This document shows, one piece after another, positions 12,572-18,957 of a stretch of 64,000 nt of DNA; within the stretch, counting starts at the first letter, position 1; each line of letters starts with the position of its first letter. The position numbers were made by a program, and so were the translations under genes. This stretch comes from Thalassovita gelatinovora (lineage in GTDB: Bacteria; Pseudomonadota; Alphaproteobacteria; Rhodobacterales; Rhodobacteraceae). Location: assembly GCF_001458355.1 (NCBI RefSeq), contig NZ_CYSA01000015.1, forward strand, positions 315,001 to 379,000, read 5' to 3'. Under the pieces are notes generated by a model. That model was not told the origin of the DNA, made no database searches, and was given only the letters and a program-made list of their open reading frames with translations.

Positions 12572-14902
12572 GTGCCTTCATTCTCGAATACGCTGGAACA
12601 GGCGATCCACGCAGCGCTGGCTTTGGCCAATGCCCGCAAACACGAATTTGCAACGCTGGAACATCTTCTACTCGCTCTGATCGACGAACCCGACGCGTTG
12701 CGCGTGCTCAAGGCCTGTTCGGTGGACACCGAAGAACTGCGTGGCACCCTGATCGAATTTGTCGACGACGACCTGTCCAATCTGGTTACCGAAATCGATG
12801 GATCCGAAGCGGTCCCCACCGCTGCCTTCCAGCGGGTGATTCAGCGTGCCGCGATTCACGTCCAAAGCTCTGGCCGGACAGAAGTGACCGGAGCCAATGT
12901 TCTGGTGGCGATTTTCGCCGAACGCGAATCGAACGCCGCCTATTTCCTGCAAGAACAGGATATGACCCGGTATGACGCGGTGAATTTCATCGCCCATGGC
13001 GTGGCCAAGGACCCGTCTTATGGCGAAACCCGCCCGGTCGAAGGATCGGAACCGATGGAAGAAGACATCAACCACGGGACCGCCTCTGAAACCATCGATC
13101 CCAAGGAATCCGCGCTTGGCAAATATTGCGTCAATCTGAATGTCAAATCGCAAAAAGGCGACATCGACCCGTTGATCGGCCGCACCCACGAGGTGGAACG
13201 CTGTATTCAGGTTCTGTGCCGCCGTCGCAAGAACAACCCGCTGCTGGTTGGTGATCCGGGCGTTGGTAAGACCGCCATCGCCGAAGGGTTGGCGCGCAAG
13301 ATCGTGGCCGGCGAAACACCCGAGGTTCTGGCCAATACCACCATCTATTCGCTCGACATGGGCGCGCTTCTGGCTGGCACCCGCTATCGCGGTGATTTCG
13401 AGGAACGGCTGAAAGCGGTGATGACCGAATTGGAAGAACATCCCGACGCGGTGCTTTTCATCGACGAAATTCACACCGTGATCGGCGCCGGGGCAACGTC
13501 GGGCGGCGCGATGGATGCGTCGAACTTGCTGAAGCCCGCGTTGCAGGGCGGCAAGCTGCGCTGCATGGGGTCGACCACTTACAAGGAATTCCGCCAGCAT
13601 TTCGAAAAAGACCGCGCCCTGTCGCGCCGGTTCCAAAAAATCGATGTGAACGAACCTTCGGTCGAAGATACGGTAAAAATCCTCAAGGGTCTGAAACCTT
13701 ATTTTGAAGACCATCACGGCATCAAGTTCACCAATGACGCCATCAAGGCGGCGGTGGATTTATCGGCCCGCTATATCAACGACCGCAAACTGCCCGACAA
13801 GGCGATTGATGTGATCGACGAAGCCGGGGCGGCACAGCATCTGGTCATCGAATCCAAGCGTCGGAAAACCATTGGCGTCAAGGAAATCGAATCCGTAGTC
13901 GCCAAGATCGCCCGCATCCCGCCGAAAAATGTGTCCAAGGATGATGCAGAGGTTCTCAAGGATCTGGAAAAGTCGTTGAAACGCGTCGTTTTTGGTCAGG
14001 ACACCGCCATCGAAGCGCTGTCTTCGGCCATCAAGCTGGCGCGTGCAGGCCTGCGCGAACCCGAAAAACCGATCGGCAACTACCTGTTCGCGGGGCCGAC
14101 CGGTGTCGGCAAAACCGAAGTCGCCAAACAGTTGGCCGATACGCTGGGTGTGGAACTGCTGCGCTTCGACATGTCCGAATATATGGAAAAACACGCGGTG
14201 TCCCGCCTGATCGGTGCGCCTCCGGGTTATGTCGGCTTTGATCAGGGCGGCATGTTGACCGATGGCATCGATCAGCACCCGCATTGCGTGCTGTTGCTTG
14301 ACGAGATGGAAAAGGCGCATCCGGATGTCTACAACATCCTGTTGCAGGTGATGGATCACGGCAAACTGACCGATCACAACGGTCGCACGGTGGATTTTCG
14401 TAACGTGGTGCTGATCATGACCTCGAACGCGGGTGCCGCCGAACAGGCCAAGGCCGCCATCGGGTTTGGCCGCGACCGCCGGACCGGAGAAGACACCGCC
14501 GCGATCGAACGCACCTTCACGCCGGAATTCCGCAATCGTCTGGACGCGGTGATCAGCTTTGCACCGCTGCCCAAGGATGTGATCCTGCAGATCGTTGAAA
14601 AGTTTGTGTTGCAGCTTGAGGCCCAGTTGCTGGACCGCAATGTGCATATCGAACTGACCCGGCCTGCCGCCGAATGGCTGGCCGACAAAGGGTACGACGA
14701 CAAGATGGGGGCCCGACCATTGGGCCGGGTAATTCAAGAATACATCAAGAAGCCGCTGGCCGAAGAGTTGCTCTTTGGTAAGCTGGCCAAGGGGGGCCTG
14801 GTCAAGGTCGGCGTGAAAAACGGCGAAATCGATCTGCGTATCGAAGGCCCTGAACGGCAGCGCATTTCCGGTGACAAACCACCCTTGTTGACCGCAGACT
14901 GA
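12572..14902 (+). CDS. clpA: ATP-dependent Clp protease ATP-binding subunit ClpA
   Basis: ClpA is a hexameric unfoldase that feeds substrates, including N-degron proteins delivered by ClpS, to ClpP. The 776-residue protein has an N-domain (about 1-145) and two AAA+ modules. Walker A1 GDPGVGKT is near residue 226, followed by [13 protein letters not shown]; Walker A2 GPTGVGKT is near residue 508, followed by the pore-loop region [13 protein letters not shown]. It starts at GTG 12572 with a strong GGAAGGAG ribosome-binding site. Often clpS lies just upstream, but the 172-base gap to gloB has no room for it. The stop overlaps the next gene's ATG (TGATG). Confidence 0.97.
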
Positions 14903-15855
14903 TGAAGCTCTTCGGATTTTTTCTGGGGTTCGCCCTCGCAGCGCAATCCGCTGCGGGGGCGCCGCTTTTTCAATGGCCGGTCGACTGCACCCTTGGCGAC
15001 AGCTGCTATATCGAAGACTACGTTGATCATGACCCGGCAGCGCACAACATCCGTGACTTTTCCTGCGGCATCAACACACGCGATGCCCACAAGGGCACCG
15101 ATATCGCACTGCTGAGTTTCGATGAAATTGACGCTGGCATCACCGTTCGCGCCGCCGCTTTTGGTCGGGTCGAACGGATTCGCGACAGCATGGCTGATGA
15201 CCGATTGATGCGCGGCGTCACCAAGGAAAACGCCTGTGGCAACGCGGTGCTGATGACCCATGGTGATGGCTGGCAAACGTTGTATTGCCACATGAAGCTG
15301 AGCTCGGTGTTGGTCAAGCCCGGCGACGTGCTGCAACCCGGTGACGCATTGGGTCAGATCGGCCTGTCGGGGCAGACCAACCATCCGCACCTGCATTTCC
15401 AGGTCATCAAAGATGGCAAGATCGTCGATCCGTTTGATGCCGCCACGACGGAAAGCTGCGCCGATCCGGTTGAATCCCTGTGGGACGATCCGGTGGAGTA
15501 TTATCGCACCGGTCTGGTGACCGCAGGTTTCGCCAACAAGATCCCCTCGATCCAAGAAGTCCAAAGCGGCGCGGTCCGGCTACAATCCAGCGCGGCCGAT
15601 GACCCGCTGGTCGTCTATTCGCTGTCCGGTGATGCCCAAGCCGGTGATCTGTTGACGATCTGGGCCAACGGTCCGCAGGGCGAAGTGTTCCGAAAGCAAA
15701 TACCGATGGAAAACCCGCAACGCGCCGTGATGCGCGCGGTGGGCCGCAAAGCCCCTGCCGGTGGATGGCCGCAAGGTGCCTATGTGGGCGAAGCGCAGTT
15801 GACCCGCAACGGCACGATCATCGCGCATCGCTTTGCCCATGTGACGGTGGAATGA
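14902..15855 (+). CDS. M23 family metallopeptidase (LytM-type), secreted
   Basis: This 317-residue protein starts with a signal peptide ([20 protein letters not shown]) and should act in the periplasm on peptidoglycan. The LytM-type zinc site is visible as HKGTD near residue 66 and HPHLHF near residue 165. Both parts of the metal site are intact, so it may be an active endopeptidase rather than a degenerate EnvC-type activator. A C-terminal domain of about 130 residues follows, of a type I do not recognise. It overlaps clpA by one base and is probably co-transcribed with it. Confidence 0.9.
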   Translation: MKLFGFFLGFALAAQSAAGAPLFQWPVDCTLGDSCYIEDYVDHDPAAHNIRDFSCGINTRDAHKGTDIALLSFDEIDAGITVRAAAFGRVERIRDSMADDRLMRGVTKENACGNAVLMTHGDGWQTLYCHMKLSSVLVKPGDVLQPGDALGQIGLSGQTNHPHLHFQVIKDGKIVDPFDAATTESCADPVESLWDDPVEYYRTGLVTAGFANKIPSIQEVQSGAVRLQSSAADDPLVVYSLSGDAQAGDLLTIWANGPQGEVFRKQIPMENPQRAVMRAVGRKAPAGGWPQGAYVGEAQLTRNGTIIAHRFAHVTVE

Positions 15856-15880: not shown

Positions 15881-17725
15881 CTACCTCTCGGTGAGTTTCA
15901 ATTCGATCCGTCGATTCTGCGCCCGTGCCTCGGGCGTGTCATCGGGATTGACCGGCTGATATTGGCCGAAACCATTAGCGCTTAACCGGTTTGGCGGAAT
16001 ACCAAGGTTTTGCACCATGAACCGCACCACCGACAACGCCCGTGCCTGGCTCAGCTCCCAGTTGTCGGCAAATTCGGCCCCGACCGCGATCGGACGATCA
16101 TCGGTATGACCATCGACCCGAATGATCCAGTCGATTTCCTTGGGGATATCACCGGCAATTTCGCGCAGGATCGACGCGACATTGGCGATTTCGCCCGCGC
16201 CTTCCGGGGAAAGATCCGCGCTGCCCGATGCGAACAGCACCTCTGACGAAAATACGAAACGGTCGCCGACGATCCGAACCCCTTCGCGTTCGCTCAGCAA
16301 TTCACGCATCCGGCCAAAAAATTCGCTGCGATACTGTTCCAAGTCCTTCTTTTCAGCCGTGAGTTGCTGCCTTTCTTGTTCCAGTCGAAGCCTTTCTGCC
16401 TCTTCCAGCAGCCGTCTTTTCCGTTCTTCGGCCGCCGCGCGGGCCAGAGCAGCGTTAAGATCCGAACCTAGATTTTCAATCCGCACATTCGAGGCAGAAT
16501 CGCGTTCCTTGTAGTCGTCCAGCAAGGCTTGCAGGCTGGACAATTGTGTCCGCATTGCCGCAAGCTGCTGATTCAACAGCGCCTGCTGGCGTTGTGCTTC
16601 GGTGGATTGGGCCTTTGCCTGCGACAGCATTTTATTCGCGGCCTCAGCCAGAACCGCCTGCCGCTCTGCTTCGCTCAGACTGTCGCGCGAAGCCTGCTCA
16701 GCAGCCAGCTTTGCCGCCAGCGCACGAGCCAGTTCTTGCTGTAATGCGGTTTCATCTTGCTGCATCGCCGCGCGGGTATTGGCGGCTTCCTGTTCGGCGG
16801 CTGCCCGGGCCTGACGCGCCAATTCGGCTTGTTCTTCCGCCGTCAGCTTGGCGGCCAGCGCTTCGGTCAGTTTGGCAGTCAAGTCTATACGCGCCGCGTC
16901 TGCCGCCGCCAGCAATGTCAGGGTCTCTTCGGCTTTGCGCCGCTGTTCATCGAGCGACAAGGTTATCGCGGTCAGTTCCGCATCGGCATTTTTCAACTTC
17001 TCGCGCAAGGCTTCTGCCGCAGCGGCTTCGGTCAGTCGCGCTGTTTCCTCTTCGCTCAGTTCATTTTGCAGCGTTTCGACCCGCGCACTTAACGTCGCAT
17101 TTGCCGTTTCCACATCTTTGTTCTGAGCCTGAAGGTCAGCAATCAGCGCCGCCAGAGCTTCGCGTTTTGCCGCCGCCAGCCGGGCGGCTTCGGCCCCGGC
17201 ATCGATCTCGTTGCGAGCCTGCGCCAAAGCCAAGTTCAGCGCTTCGCGTTCATCGATAAGATCGGCCTGTTCCTGTTGCAGCGCCGCGATACTGCCGCGC
17301 GCTTCTTCGCGCTGTGCCAACAATGCCGTAACCCGCGCTTCGAAATCGGTGATTTTCAGATTGGCATCTGCCAATGCGGCAGCCTGATTGTCCCGTTCCA
17401 CGGTCAGGGACGCGATCAAAGCTTCACGCGTCTCCGCTTGCTGACGGGCCGCAGACAGGGTCGCGTCCAATTCACCCACCCGTTCGGTCAATTGCGCACT
17501 GCGCCGTTTTTCCAATCCCAACGCGTCAGCCAATGCGGCGATTTCAACCGACAGGGAATCAAGTTCGCTTTCCTGTCCACTGATCGTTTCGCGCAGCACG
17601 AATTGCACCACCATGAAGATGGTCAGCACGAACATCAGCACCAGCAGAAGACCGGTCATCGCATCCACGAAACCGGGCCAGATCGAGCTTTGAAAGCGTT
17701 GTCCGGTGCGGCGCGAAAGGGCCAT
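15881..17725 (-). CDS. MotB/OmpA-like peptidoglycan-binding protein with long coiled coil
   Basis: This 614-residue protein has one N-terminal membrane segment (about 19-42), preceded by a conserved-looking Asp21 in PGFVDAMTGLLLVLMF, in the place of the proton-binding Asp of MotB. A very long alanine- and glutamate-rich coiled coil follows (about 45-480). The C-terminal OmpA-like domain (about 490-614) has VDGHTDDRPI and NRRIELKL, which bind peptidoglycan in relatives. It is two bases downstream of an ExbB/MotA-like gene. Together they look like a proton-driven stator complex spanning to the cell wall. Function is unknown; no flagellar or Tol genes are adjacent. Confidence 0.8.
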   Translation of the reverse strand: MALSRRTGQRFQSSIWPGFVDAMTGLLLVLMFVLTIFMVVQFVLRETISGQESELDSLSVEIAALADALGLEKRRSAQLTERVGELDATLSAARQQAETREALIASLTVERDNQAAALADANLKITDFEARVTALLAQREEARGSIAALQQEQADLIDEREALNLALAQARNEIDAGAEAARLAAAKREALAALIADLQAQNKDVETANATLSARVETLQNELSEEETARLTEAAAAEALREKLKNADAELTAITLSLDEQRRKAEETLTLLAAADAARIDLTAKLTEALAAKLTAEEQAELARQARAAAEQEAANTRAAMQQDETALQQELARALAAKLAAEQASRDSLSEAERQAVLAEAANKMLSQAKAQSTEAQRQQALLNQQLAAMRTQLSSLQALLDDYKERDSASNVRIENLGSDLNAALARAAAEERKRRLLEEAERLRLEQERQQLTAEKKDLEQYRSEFFGRMRELLSEREGVRIVGDRFVFSSEVLFASGSADLSPEGAGEIANVASILREIAGDIPKEIDWIIRVDGHTDDRPIAVGAEFADNWELSQARALSVVRFMVQNLGIPPNRLSANGFGQYQPVNPDDTPEARAQNRRIELKLTER

Positions 17726-17727
17726 GA

Positions 17728-18957
17728 TCAGCCCTCCTTATCCTTGGTCCGAGCGCTGCGCATTTGAGGGTGATCGGCTTCGGCGATGCGATTCTGTGCC
17801 ACCAACCGGGTCAAAGACGCGATATCCATGCGCAGTTCAGCCATGGTTTCCTGACGTCCGGCGCTGATTTCTTCCAGAATGCGCAGCAACTGCACATCCA
17901 TTGACCGCAACCGCATCCGGCTTTCCGCATCCAGCCCTTCGCCGCTTCCGCCTTCGCTCATAATCTCGATCAGCCGCTCCTGACCGTCGGCGACACGTTC
18001 CAACGCATCATGAACCGGGCGATTTCCGGCCAGACGGTCGGTCAACCGTTCAATCGATCCAGCCAGACTGCCCAGTTTGGCGTCGACTTCGGCCCGACCT
18101 GCTTCGGTATGAACGAACAACTGCCGCATCTGATCCATCTGTTCCAGCATATGATCAAGAATTTGCGCGGCGGCAGAAAATTCGCCGCTCCCATCCCCCT
18201 CACCGGACGAAAAGGCCACCCGAGTGATCGTCGACAACCATTCCTCAAGTTCCCGGTAAAACCGGTTCTGACCATGACCGGCCAAGAGTTCCAACAACCC
18301 AACCACCAAGGACCCGGCCAGACCCAGCAAGGACGATCCGAACGCCACCCCCATACCAGAAAGCTGAGCATCAAGCCCGCTCATCAAGCGGCCGAACGTA
18401 TCCACACCGCTTTCACCTTCGGCCGGCGCCAGACTGCGGATCGTATCGACCAGCGCGGGCACCGTGGTCGCAAGACCGTAAAACGTCCCCAACAGTCCCA
18501 AAAAGATCAACAGGTTGACGATATATCGCGTGATTTCGCGCGCTTCGTCGATCCGTGTCGCCACCGAATCCAGAATTGATCTGGTCGAGGATGAACTGAT
18601 CTGCATCTGGGAATTGCGACTGCGCAACAACGTGGCCAGCGGCGCAAGCAGGCTTGGCGCGTGGCGGTCTTCTTGCCGGGTTCCGTTCGAAGCGAAGTCT
18701 TCGATCCAGCGCACTGAACTAAACAATTGCGCCATCTGCCAGAAACAGGCGATCACGCCGAGCGCGAAAACGAACAGGATGAACCCGTTCAGGTAAGGGT
18801 TGGCTTCGAAAACCGGCAAAATCCGTGGCAGGGCGAGAACGACAACAAAGCCGCTCAACGCCAAGACCAGAAGCATCAGCAAAATCTGGCGGACGGGTGG
18901 TGAAAATTGCGGCTCGGCCTCGCGGTCCGTCTGTACCATTCGGACAGATCCCGACAC
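17728..18957 (-). CDS. MotA/TolQ/ExbB-like membrane protein
   Basis: This 409-residue protein has four likely membrane segments (about 24-46, 56-78, 144-166 and 205-225). The last two match the MotA/TolQ/ExbB core: NLLIFLGLLGTFYGLATTVPAL and LSGMGVAFGSSLLGLAGSLVVGLLE. A cytoplasmic helical tail of about 170 residues follows. Such proteins form pentameric channels around a B-type dimer. The partner here is the next gene, whose Asp21 would line the channel. Start at 18957 or at the second Met, 18939, cannot be settled. Confidence 0.82.
   Translation of the reverse strand: MSGSVRMVQTDREAEPQFSPPVRQILLMLLVLALSGFVVVLALPRILPVFEANPYLNGFILFVFALGVIACFWQMAQLFSSVRWIEDFASNGTRQEDRHAPSLLAPLATLLRSRNSQMQISSSSTRSILDSVATRIDEAREITRYIVNLLIFLGLLGTFYGLATTVPALVDTIRSLAPAEGESGVDTFGRLMSGLDAQLSGMGVAFGSSLLGLAGSLVVGLLELLAGHGQNRFYRELEEWLSTITRVAFSSGEGDGSGEFSAAAQILDHMLEQMDQMRQLFVHTEAGRAEVDAKLGSLAGSIERLTDRLAGNRPVHDALERVADGQERLIEIMSEGGSGEGLDAESRMRLRSMDVQLLRILEEISAGRQETMAELRMDIASLTRLVAQNRIAEADHPQMRSARTKDKEG

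Follow-up and report, generated by a model that had tools for sequence, protein, structure and literature searches.

A conserved alphaproteobacterial protein pair with motor-like features and a coiled coil of heptad-quantised length

The flagellar stators MotAB and PomAB combine a four-helix A subunit with a single-helix B subunit that carries an Asp residue and an OmpA wall anchor. These features are shared by the gene pair described here (A and B), which differs from the flagellar stators by having no plug domain, no flagellar neighbours, and a coil that spans hundreds of residues. TolQR and ExbBD share with the pair the fold of A and, in the case of TolQ, the GLLGT motif containing Thr145, but A is a four-helix protein and B carries an OmpA domain instead of a TolR/ExbD domain. 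Another motor pair outside the flagellum, SiiAB of Salmonella SPI4, is named in PMC12204202. One of its subunits binds the wall, but SiiAB serves a type I secretion system, and no such genes are found beside A/B. The pair ZorAB (PDB 8qyd and 8vvn; PMC11890865) has, like A/B, an Asp residue in the B helix, an OmpA-type domain on B, and a cytoplasmic tail on A, and ZorA is the best profile match to the channel core of A. A/B differs from ZorAB by the absence of effector genes and by its near-universal presence in the family. In addition, the long rod of A/B is part of B and lies in the periplasm, whereas that of ZorAB, as described in PMC11890865, is part of A and lies in the cytoplasm.

A and B are located in a window of 64,000 nucleotides of the genome of Thalassovita gelatinovora (3.9 Mb, 30 contigs), and their features are listed in Table 1. 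A reading of the window made from its sequence only had proposed that an ExbB/MotA-like protein with a cytoplasmic tail is paired with a MotB-like protein containing Asp21, a coiled coil of more than 400 residues, and an OmpA domain. Analysis of the relatives and predicted fold of A identified it as a four-helix channel subunit, and all of the features attributed to B were present in its sequence. A comprises 409 residues if counted from the GTG at position 18957, although the consensus of its relatives suggests that the ATG at codon 7 (position 18939) is the likelier start. It is followed, after a gap of 2 bases, by B (614 residues). Pfam scanning of the ten flanking genes assigned nine of them to housekeeping, envelope, or DUF2125 (unknown-function) families and one to no family, confirming that no flagellar, Tol, or Ton gene adjoins the pair. 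The assigned families were ChaC, DUF2125, extensin-like protein, prephenate dehydrogenase, aminotransferase, and ribosomal S4 on one side and M23 peptidase, Clp ATPase, and hydroxyacylglutathione hydrolase on the other. In the window, the M23 peptidase gene (14902-15855) runs towards B. ChaC was found upstream at 94 of 100 Rhodobacterales loci, with ClpA/M23 downstream; the M23 gene was present at 47 of the 100 loci and was downstream and opposed in 46 of these 47. None of these neighbours was detected at the loci of other orders. Thus, ChaC and ClpA/M23 look like local gene order and were rejected as partners.

Table 1. Features of the A and B genes, given as positions in the window
Feature	Position	Strand	Basis or remark
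A subunit, MotA/ExbB/TolQ/ZorA-type channel protein	17728..18957	minus	ORF, relatives, fold
A four-helix membrane core, residues 20-247	18217..18900	minus	
A Thr158, in GLLGT motif	18484..18486	minus	Aligned with E. coli TolQ Thr145; invariant in 135/135
A Ser209	18331..18333	minus	Invariant in 135/135; putative match to TolQ Thr178, by motif
A conserved end of cytoplasmic tail, residues 341-388	17794..17937	minus	
B subunit, one membrane helix, coiled coil, and OmpA domain	15881..17725	minus	ORF, NCBIfam NF006542
B Asp21, putative ion-binding residue	17663..17665	minus	In WPGFVD
B coiled coil, residues 45-478	16292..17593	minus	Three long predicted helices, breaks near 220-226 and 348-352
B OmpA peptidoglycan-binding domain (PF00691), residues 497-605	15911..16237	minus	

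Its relatives and predicted fold place A in the MotA/ExbB/TolQ superfamily, despite a Pfam score below the cut-off (MotA_ExbB, PF01618; 15.6 bits for a cut-off of 22.9; E of 0.014 for the core). Comparison of 44 core members with the same model gave matches for 42 of them at E <= 0.1 (best, 1.6e-7), whereas ZorA models matched all 44 (best, 6.5e-15). The NCBIfam TolQ and MotA models matched 4 and 3 of the 44 relatives, weakly. Besides the Thr and Ser residues listed in Table 1, Gly154, Gly157, Gly161, Phe206, and Gly212 were invariant in the 135 A proteins. The AlphaFold model of A (pLDDT 77.6) contains long helices at residues 22-52, 54-90, 122-175, and 184-250. A Foldseek search with this model listed 50 matches, all of them TolQ, ExbB, or ZorA proteins; the best had an E of 1.2e-3 (probability 1.00), so that none of those listed reached 1e-3. 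VIA Z scores against the model were 12.2 for TolQ, 11.9 for ExbB, 10.3 for ZorA, and 9.9 for MotA, values that are not decisive alone, since a designed helical bundle scored 10.0. Searched against the PDB, the whole-protein profile of A matched mostly unrelated coiled coils, via the tail, and the core profile matched only TolQ, at E 3.5. The tail, of ~160 residues, is predicted to be cytoplasmic, and its far end (residues 341-388) is better conserved than its middle.

B matched NF006542 (PRK09039.1-1) over model positions 1 to 627 of 627 (E of 4.1e-245; 815.6 bits for a cut-off of 388) and is thus a full-length member of this family. The models NF006542 to NF006546 correspond to PRK09039.1, "peptidoglycan -binding protein", a name that comes without a function in the library table; the pairing with A, the motor residues, and the heptad rule reported below are not stated there. 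The OmpA domain was matched by PF00691 at E 9.4e-19. The remaining Pfam matches up to E 10 were weak and to other families, with neither the plug domain (PF13677) nor a TolR/ExbD domain among them. The putative ion-binding Asp proved to be conserved, since a D follows W-P-G-F-V in 131 of the 131 B proteins with the motif. The motif was missing in 2 of 133 B proteins, L080, which lies at a contig end, and L088, which is a second B copy. In the latter genome (G250), this second B-like frame has no A of its own, and the other copy (L089) has one.

In the OmpA domain, D542, R562, R605, and R606 were invariant in 134 B proteins, and residue 541 was T in 132 of them and S in 2. T541, R562, and R605/R606 match, by motif, the one Thr and two Arg whose equivalents are needed for wall binding by Pal, according to the Zorya study (PMC11890865). 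The membrane helix is preceded by three K/R and no D/E and followed by one K/R and four D/E, in agreement with the N-terminus-in orientation that the sequence-only reading had set as a condition for a periplasmic coil. Conservation of the wall-binding residues makes a cytoplasmic location of the OmpA domain unlikely, indicating that the coil is periplasmic. If the pair is a non-flagellar motor, its OmpA domain counters a statement in PMC12505986 that an OmpA-type domain is missing from the B subunits of such motors.

Of the 120 family genomes, 117 contained A, the three without a match being 82, 100, and 76% complete; A was also detected in 187 of 289 genomes of the class at E <= 1e-20 (160 of the 235 of good quality). 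It was nearly always single-copy among the matches listed for the class and was kept in genomes of 0.7-1.0 Mb. A broader sample of the phylum gave matches in 94 of 299 genomes at 1e-6, with a few strong ones outside the class. A was missing from 102 of the 289 class genomes, several of which are complete and measure 3-4.6 Mb. The pair, being absent from many genomes of the class, is thus not universally essential. The B model matched 249 of the 289 class genomes at 1e-3, a figure that includes other OmpA proteins, and 4 passed the cut-off. Examination of 139 loci revealed both genes at 128, A only at 6, and B only at 5, and A was directly upstream of B on the same strand at all 128 loci with both. 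The five genomes of the B-only loci all carry A elsewhere, and two of them (L080 and L088) also carry another B. A and B were on different contigs in three genomes, two of which are 0.7-1.0 Mb in size. Together, these results indicate that the A/B pair is old and conserved in alphaproteobacteria. ORFs of ~1180-1400 residues with a MotA/ZorA-like domain were also observed in other Pseudomonadota (L216-L219, L221-L223, and L226-L227); these are another branch of the superfamily.

The linker of B (~436 residues, positions 45-480) contains 7 glycines and no proline. Its hydrophobic repeat is exactly 3.50 residues (power of 15.2 versus 11.3 for the best shuffle; reached by 0 of 500 shuffles), a periodicity that is lost when Ala is counted as hydrophobic (reached by 63 of 500 shuffles). 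The structure model of B was weak (pLDDT 70.4; pTM 0.33), and self-BLAST of nine coils revealed no internal repeats. The Asp-to-OmpA distance was measured in 126 of 133 B proteins, L080, L081, L088, L120, L156, L157, and L170 being dropped since an anchor was missing, and varied from 166 to 1009 residues. Linkers ranged from 166 to 770 residues outside Rhodobacterales (n = 36) and from 315 to 1009 residues, with a median of 490, in Rhodobacterales (window genome left out; n = 89). The longest coils of the set, including L152, L141, and L181, are close to 1000 residues and contain no proline. The sequence-only reading was correct in calling the coil giant and periplasmic, but its size is no peculiarity of the source genome; in comparison to the window genome, the coil was shorter in most other alphaproteobacteria examined and longer in some Rhodobacterales. 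At 0.1485 nm per residue, the lengths convert to 25-150 nm. The periplasm measures ~20-30 nm. Most of the Rhodobacterales coils therefore cannot stand upright in it.

Linker lengths were multiples of 7 in 23 of the 36 non-Rhodobacterales proteins, in which classes 0 to 6 modulo 7 contained 23, 1, 0, 4, 6, 2, and 0 lengths. The corresponding numbers in Rhodobacterales were 39, 7, 2, 16, 18, 5, and 2, and both distributions deviate strongly from uniformity. Lengths modulo 5, 8, and 11 were unremarkable, and the lengths of the A tail, used as a control, were uniform modulo 7 (p of 0.63 and 0.38). The Rhodobacterales linkers also gave weak signals modulo 6 (p of 0.02) and modulo 9 (p of 0.0068); the p-values for linkers are too small because the rows are related by descent, an effect that is lessened by counting distinct lengths. 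With each distinct length counted once, and with the window genome included in the Rhodobacterales set (n = 90), 18 of 28 non-Rhodobacterales and 26 of 74 Rhodobacterales lengths were in class 0. Classes 0, 3, and 4, which correspond to whole heptads or to a single stutter or stammer, together held 25 of the 28 lengths and 58 of the 74. Three sub-segments of the Rhodobacterales linkers fell into one class modulo 7 in 74 of 74, 61 of 64, and 78 of 80 cases. A fourth (ELTA-to-LN) was loose in register (32 of 73) and is located near the largest insertions (after residue 314) and the break at residues 348-352 of the B model. Thus, the register of the B coil is conserved and its length is not. The quantisation of the Asp-to-OmpA distance in heptads is new, what was already known being the family name PRK09039, without a function. 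It offers a direct test of whether such motors pass torque along a coiled coil, because the register can be altered independently of the length.

The domain make-up, gene pairing, conservation, and heptad quantisation established here are best explained, as a whole, by an ion-driven 5:2 motor that is tethered to peptidoglycan and acts in envelope growth or division, an account that we regard as evenly balanced between right and wrong. That A/B is a distinct ion motor of the 5:2 type is very probable, its stoichiometry, ion flow, rotation, direction of output, and cellular role being what we infer; that it serves the growth or division of the envelope is plausible. Five A subunits would surround two B helices, in the manner of MotAB, TolQR, and ZorAB. 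Protons or sodium ions would pass by Asp21 of B and a ring formed by Thr158 and Ser209 of A, and this passage would drive the rotation of A relative to B. The sequence-only reading had termed the pair proton-driven, as the conserved residues suggest, although the ion may be sodium. B would be a parallel dimer, the coiled coil of which carries two OmpA domains that grip the peptidoglycan. The coil would thereby act as a torsionally coherent tether that drifts in length and keeps its heptad register, so that its two ends stay in phase. Torque may be delivered to a cytoplasmic partner via the A tail, to the wall as twist or tension via the coil, or to both; the sequence-only reading had suggested that the pair may push or pull on structures of the envelope. 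The pair would have a housekeeping role in growth or division of the alphaproteobacterial envelope rather than in motility or phage defence.

The output of the motor could instead be mainly cytoplasmic, as proposed for ZorAB, B being only a stator and the A tails driving a cytoplasmic partner or signalling to it. This is possible but unlikely: the A core matches ZorA better than MotA_ExbB and the far end of the tail is more conserved than the middle, but the tail is nearly absent in some members, as judged by ORF lengths (252-321 residues), and comparison across orders revealed no conserved cytoplasmic partner next to the pair. A passive complex for sensing or gating, in which the coil would act as a strain gauge between the wall and the inner membrane and would open an ion leak or send a signal, appears improbable. 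Freedom of length combined with a fixed register is what a tether would show, and a gated leak would also need all of the ion-path residues; however, the Thr/Ser/Asp path and the pairing match those of known rotary motors. It is highly improbable that A/B is simply a diverged stator of the usual flagellar, Tol, or Ton kind, since the superfamily fold of A and the alignment of the B OmpA domain with E. coli MotB (E 1e-9) have to be set against separate TolQ, ExbB, and MotA proteins elsewhere in the same genome, the lack of a plug domain in B, a distinct group in the tree, and the lack of adjoining partner genes. An equally remote reading is that of a Zorya phage-defence system: PADLOC ZorA and ZorB models match A and B, but no effector was found among the ten flanking genes, A is present in nearly the entire family, and the ZorA1 model has no match in the source genome at E 1e-30, a threshold at which 3 of 299 genomes do match.

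The only PF13677 match in the source genome (C28:162357) is a MotB located beside MotA. In a tree of A, MotA, TolQ, ExbB, and ZorA, the A proteins cluster by themselves (78/91), and TolQ/ExbB are separated from them by a branch (97/91). The deep order of this tree is not settled, the MotA branches being very long and ZorA not forming one group, and A is therefore not claimed as the sister of ZorA. Orthology of the pair to MotAB or TolQR, which would have contradicted the sequence-only reading, was not found. A/B was rejected both as an orthologue of the flagellar, Tol, or Ton motors and as a Zorya defence system on the basis of distribution, separate paralogues, and missing domains or effectors.

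A literature search of main texts retrieved no experiment on the A/B pair and no study of it under PRK09039 or as such a stator, with one likely exception. Unflagellated Komagataeibacter hansenii has an adjacent "motA/motB" pair encoding 348 and 321 residues, which the authors treated as motility genes (PMC6570709). Overexpression led to long, chained cells of 1.33-6.13 and 1.56-5.12 um in comparison to 1.00-3.15 um, GFP fusions formed polar foci, and BLAST partners of the MotB protein were reported in Rhizobium and Rhodospirillum at 95-98% coverage. Similar to A/B, this pair has four plus one helices and an OmpA domain, and at 321 residues its MotB would have a short coil. The K. hansenii pair probably belongs to the A/B family, an assignment based on its size and topology, the missing flagellum, and the BLAST partners that the paper reports. 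If the preferred reading of A/B as a wall-tethered motor is true, an ion-driven wall motor has gone unstudied in most alphaproteobacteria, including species that serve as models and symbionts of plants, under the annotation "peptidoglycan-binding protein", and was probably the subject of one paper that regarded it as a motility gene.

Outside Rhodobacterales, 18 of 39 loci (L064-L102) encode, just upstream of A, a proline-rich secreted protein that carries an OmpA-like domain at its C-terminus. Five such proteins tested matched PF00691 (2.5e-9 to 4e-14), and the degenerate OmpA domain keeps the Arg and lacks the GHTD motif. Searches in 13 Rhodobacterales genomes gave best matches of 2e-11 or weaker, and five of eight genomes from other families gave matches of 1e-25 to 1e-31. 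The protein is thus probably absent from Rhodobacterales and is a candidate third part of the system in other orders. An inositol-monophosphatase-like gene was present at 28 of the 39 loci. In Sinorhizobium meliloti Ak57, genes for thiamine phosphate synthase, a Sel1-repeat protein, and inositol monophosphatase precede A and B, in this order; S. meliloti A and B align with those of the window at 8e-55 and 1e-76, and S. meliloti B belongs to NF006544. The Sel1 protein (L245:3433-4578), encoded two genes upstream of A, has a signal-peptide-like start, as read by eye, and is matched by the NCBIfam model of MotX, a Sel1-type protein of the Vibrio T-ring, at 8.5e-13, under the cut-off. A Sel1 match was found at 4 of the 39 other loci, within flanks too short to see further.

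RgsF (SMc03995) of S. meliloti is a periplasmic protein with Sel1 repeats that is essential for growth and is located at the growing pole and the septum, and its depletion leads to short, round cells (PMC7327166, which also assigns RgsB to SMc04006 and RgsC to SMc04010). The Sel1 gene near A/B is probably RgsF, as judged by gene order and by counting locus tags backwards from a DUF882 gene that was assumed to be RgsC, a count that requires one unlisted gene in a gap of the table and leaves out an IS element. This neighbourhood and the K. hansenii phenotype speak for a role of A/B in envelope growth or division. A/B might be a further, class-wide envelope motor for zonal wall growth or division at the poles and septum, in which the coil, lying along the periplasm, would be a torsion shaft that stores or transmits twist in heptad steps. 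A Sel1 protein (RgsF in S. meliloti) and the degenerate OmpA-like protein would be its periplasmic partners, comparable to the MotX/MotY ring that accompanies the Vibrio stator; in this full form, the proposal is speculative and rather unlikely. The plasmid-collection record CP090106.1 is labelled pSymB, but it is 3.7 Mb long and carries chromosomal genes (tkt, gap, and pgk), and the label is probably wrong.
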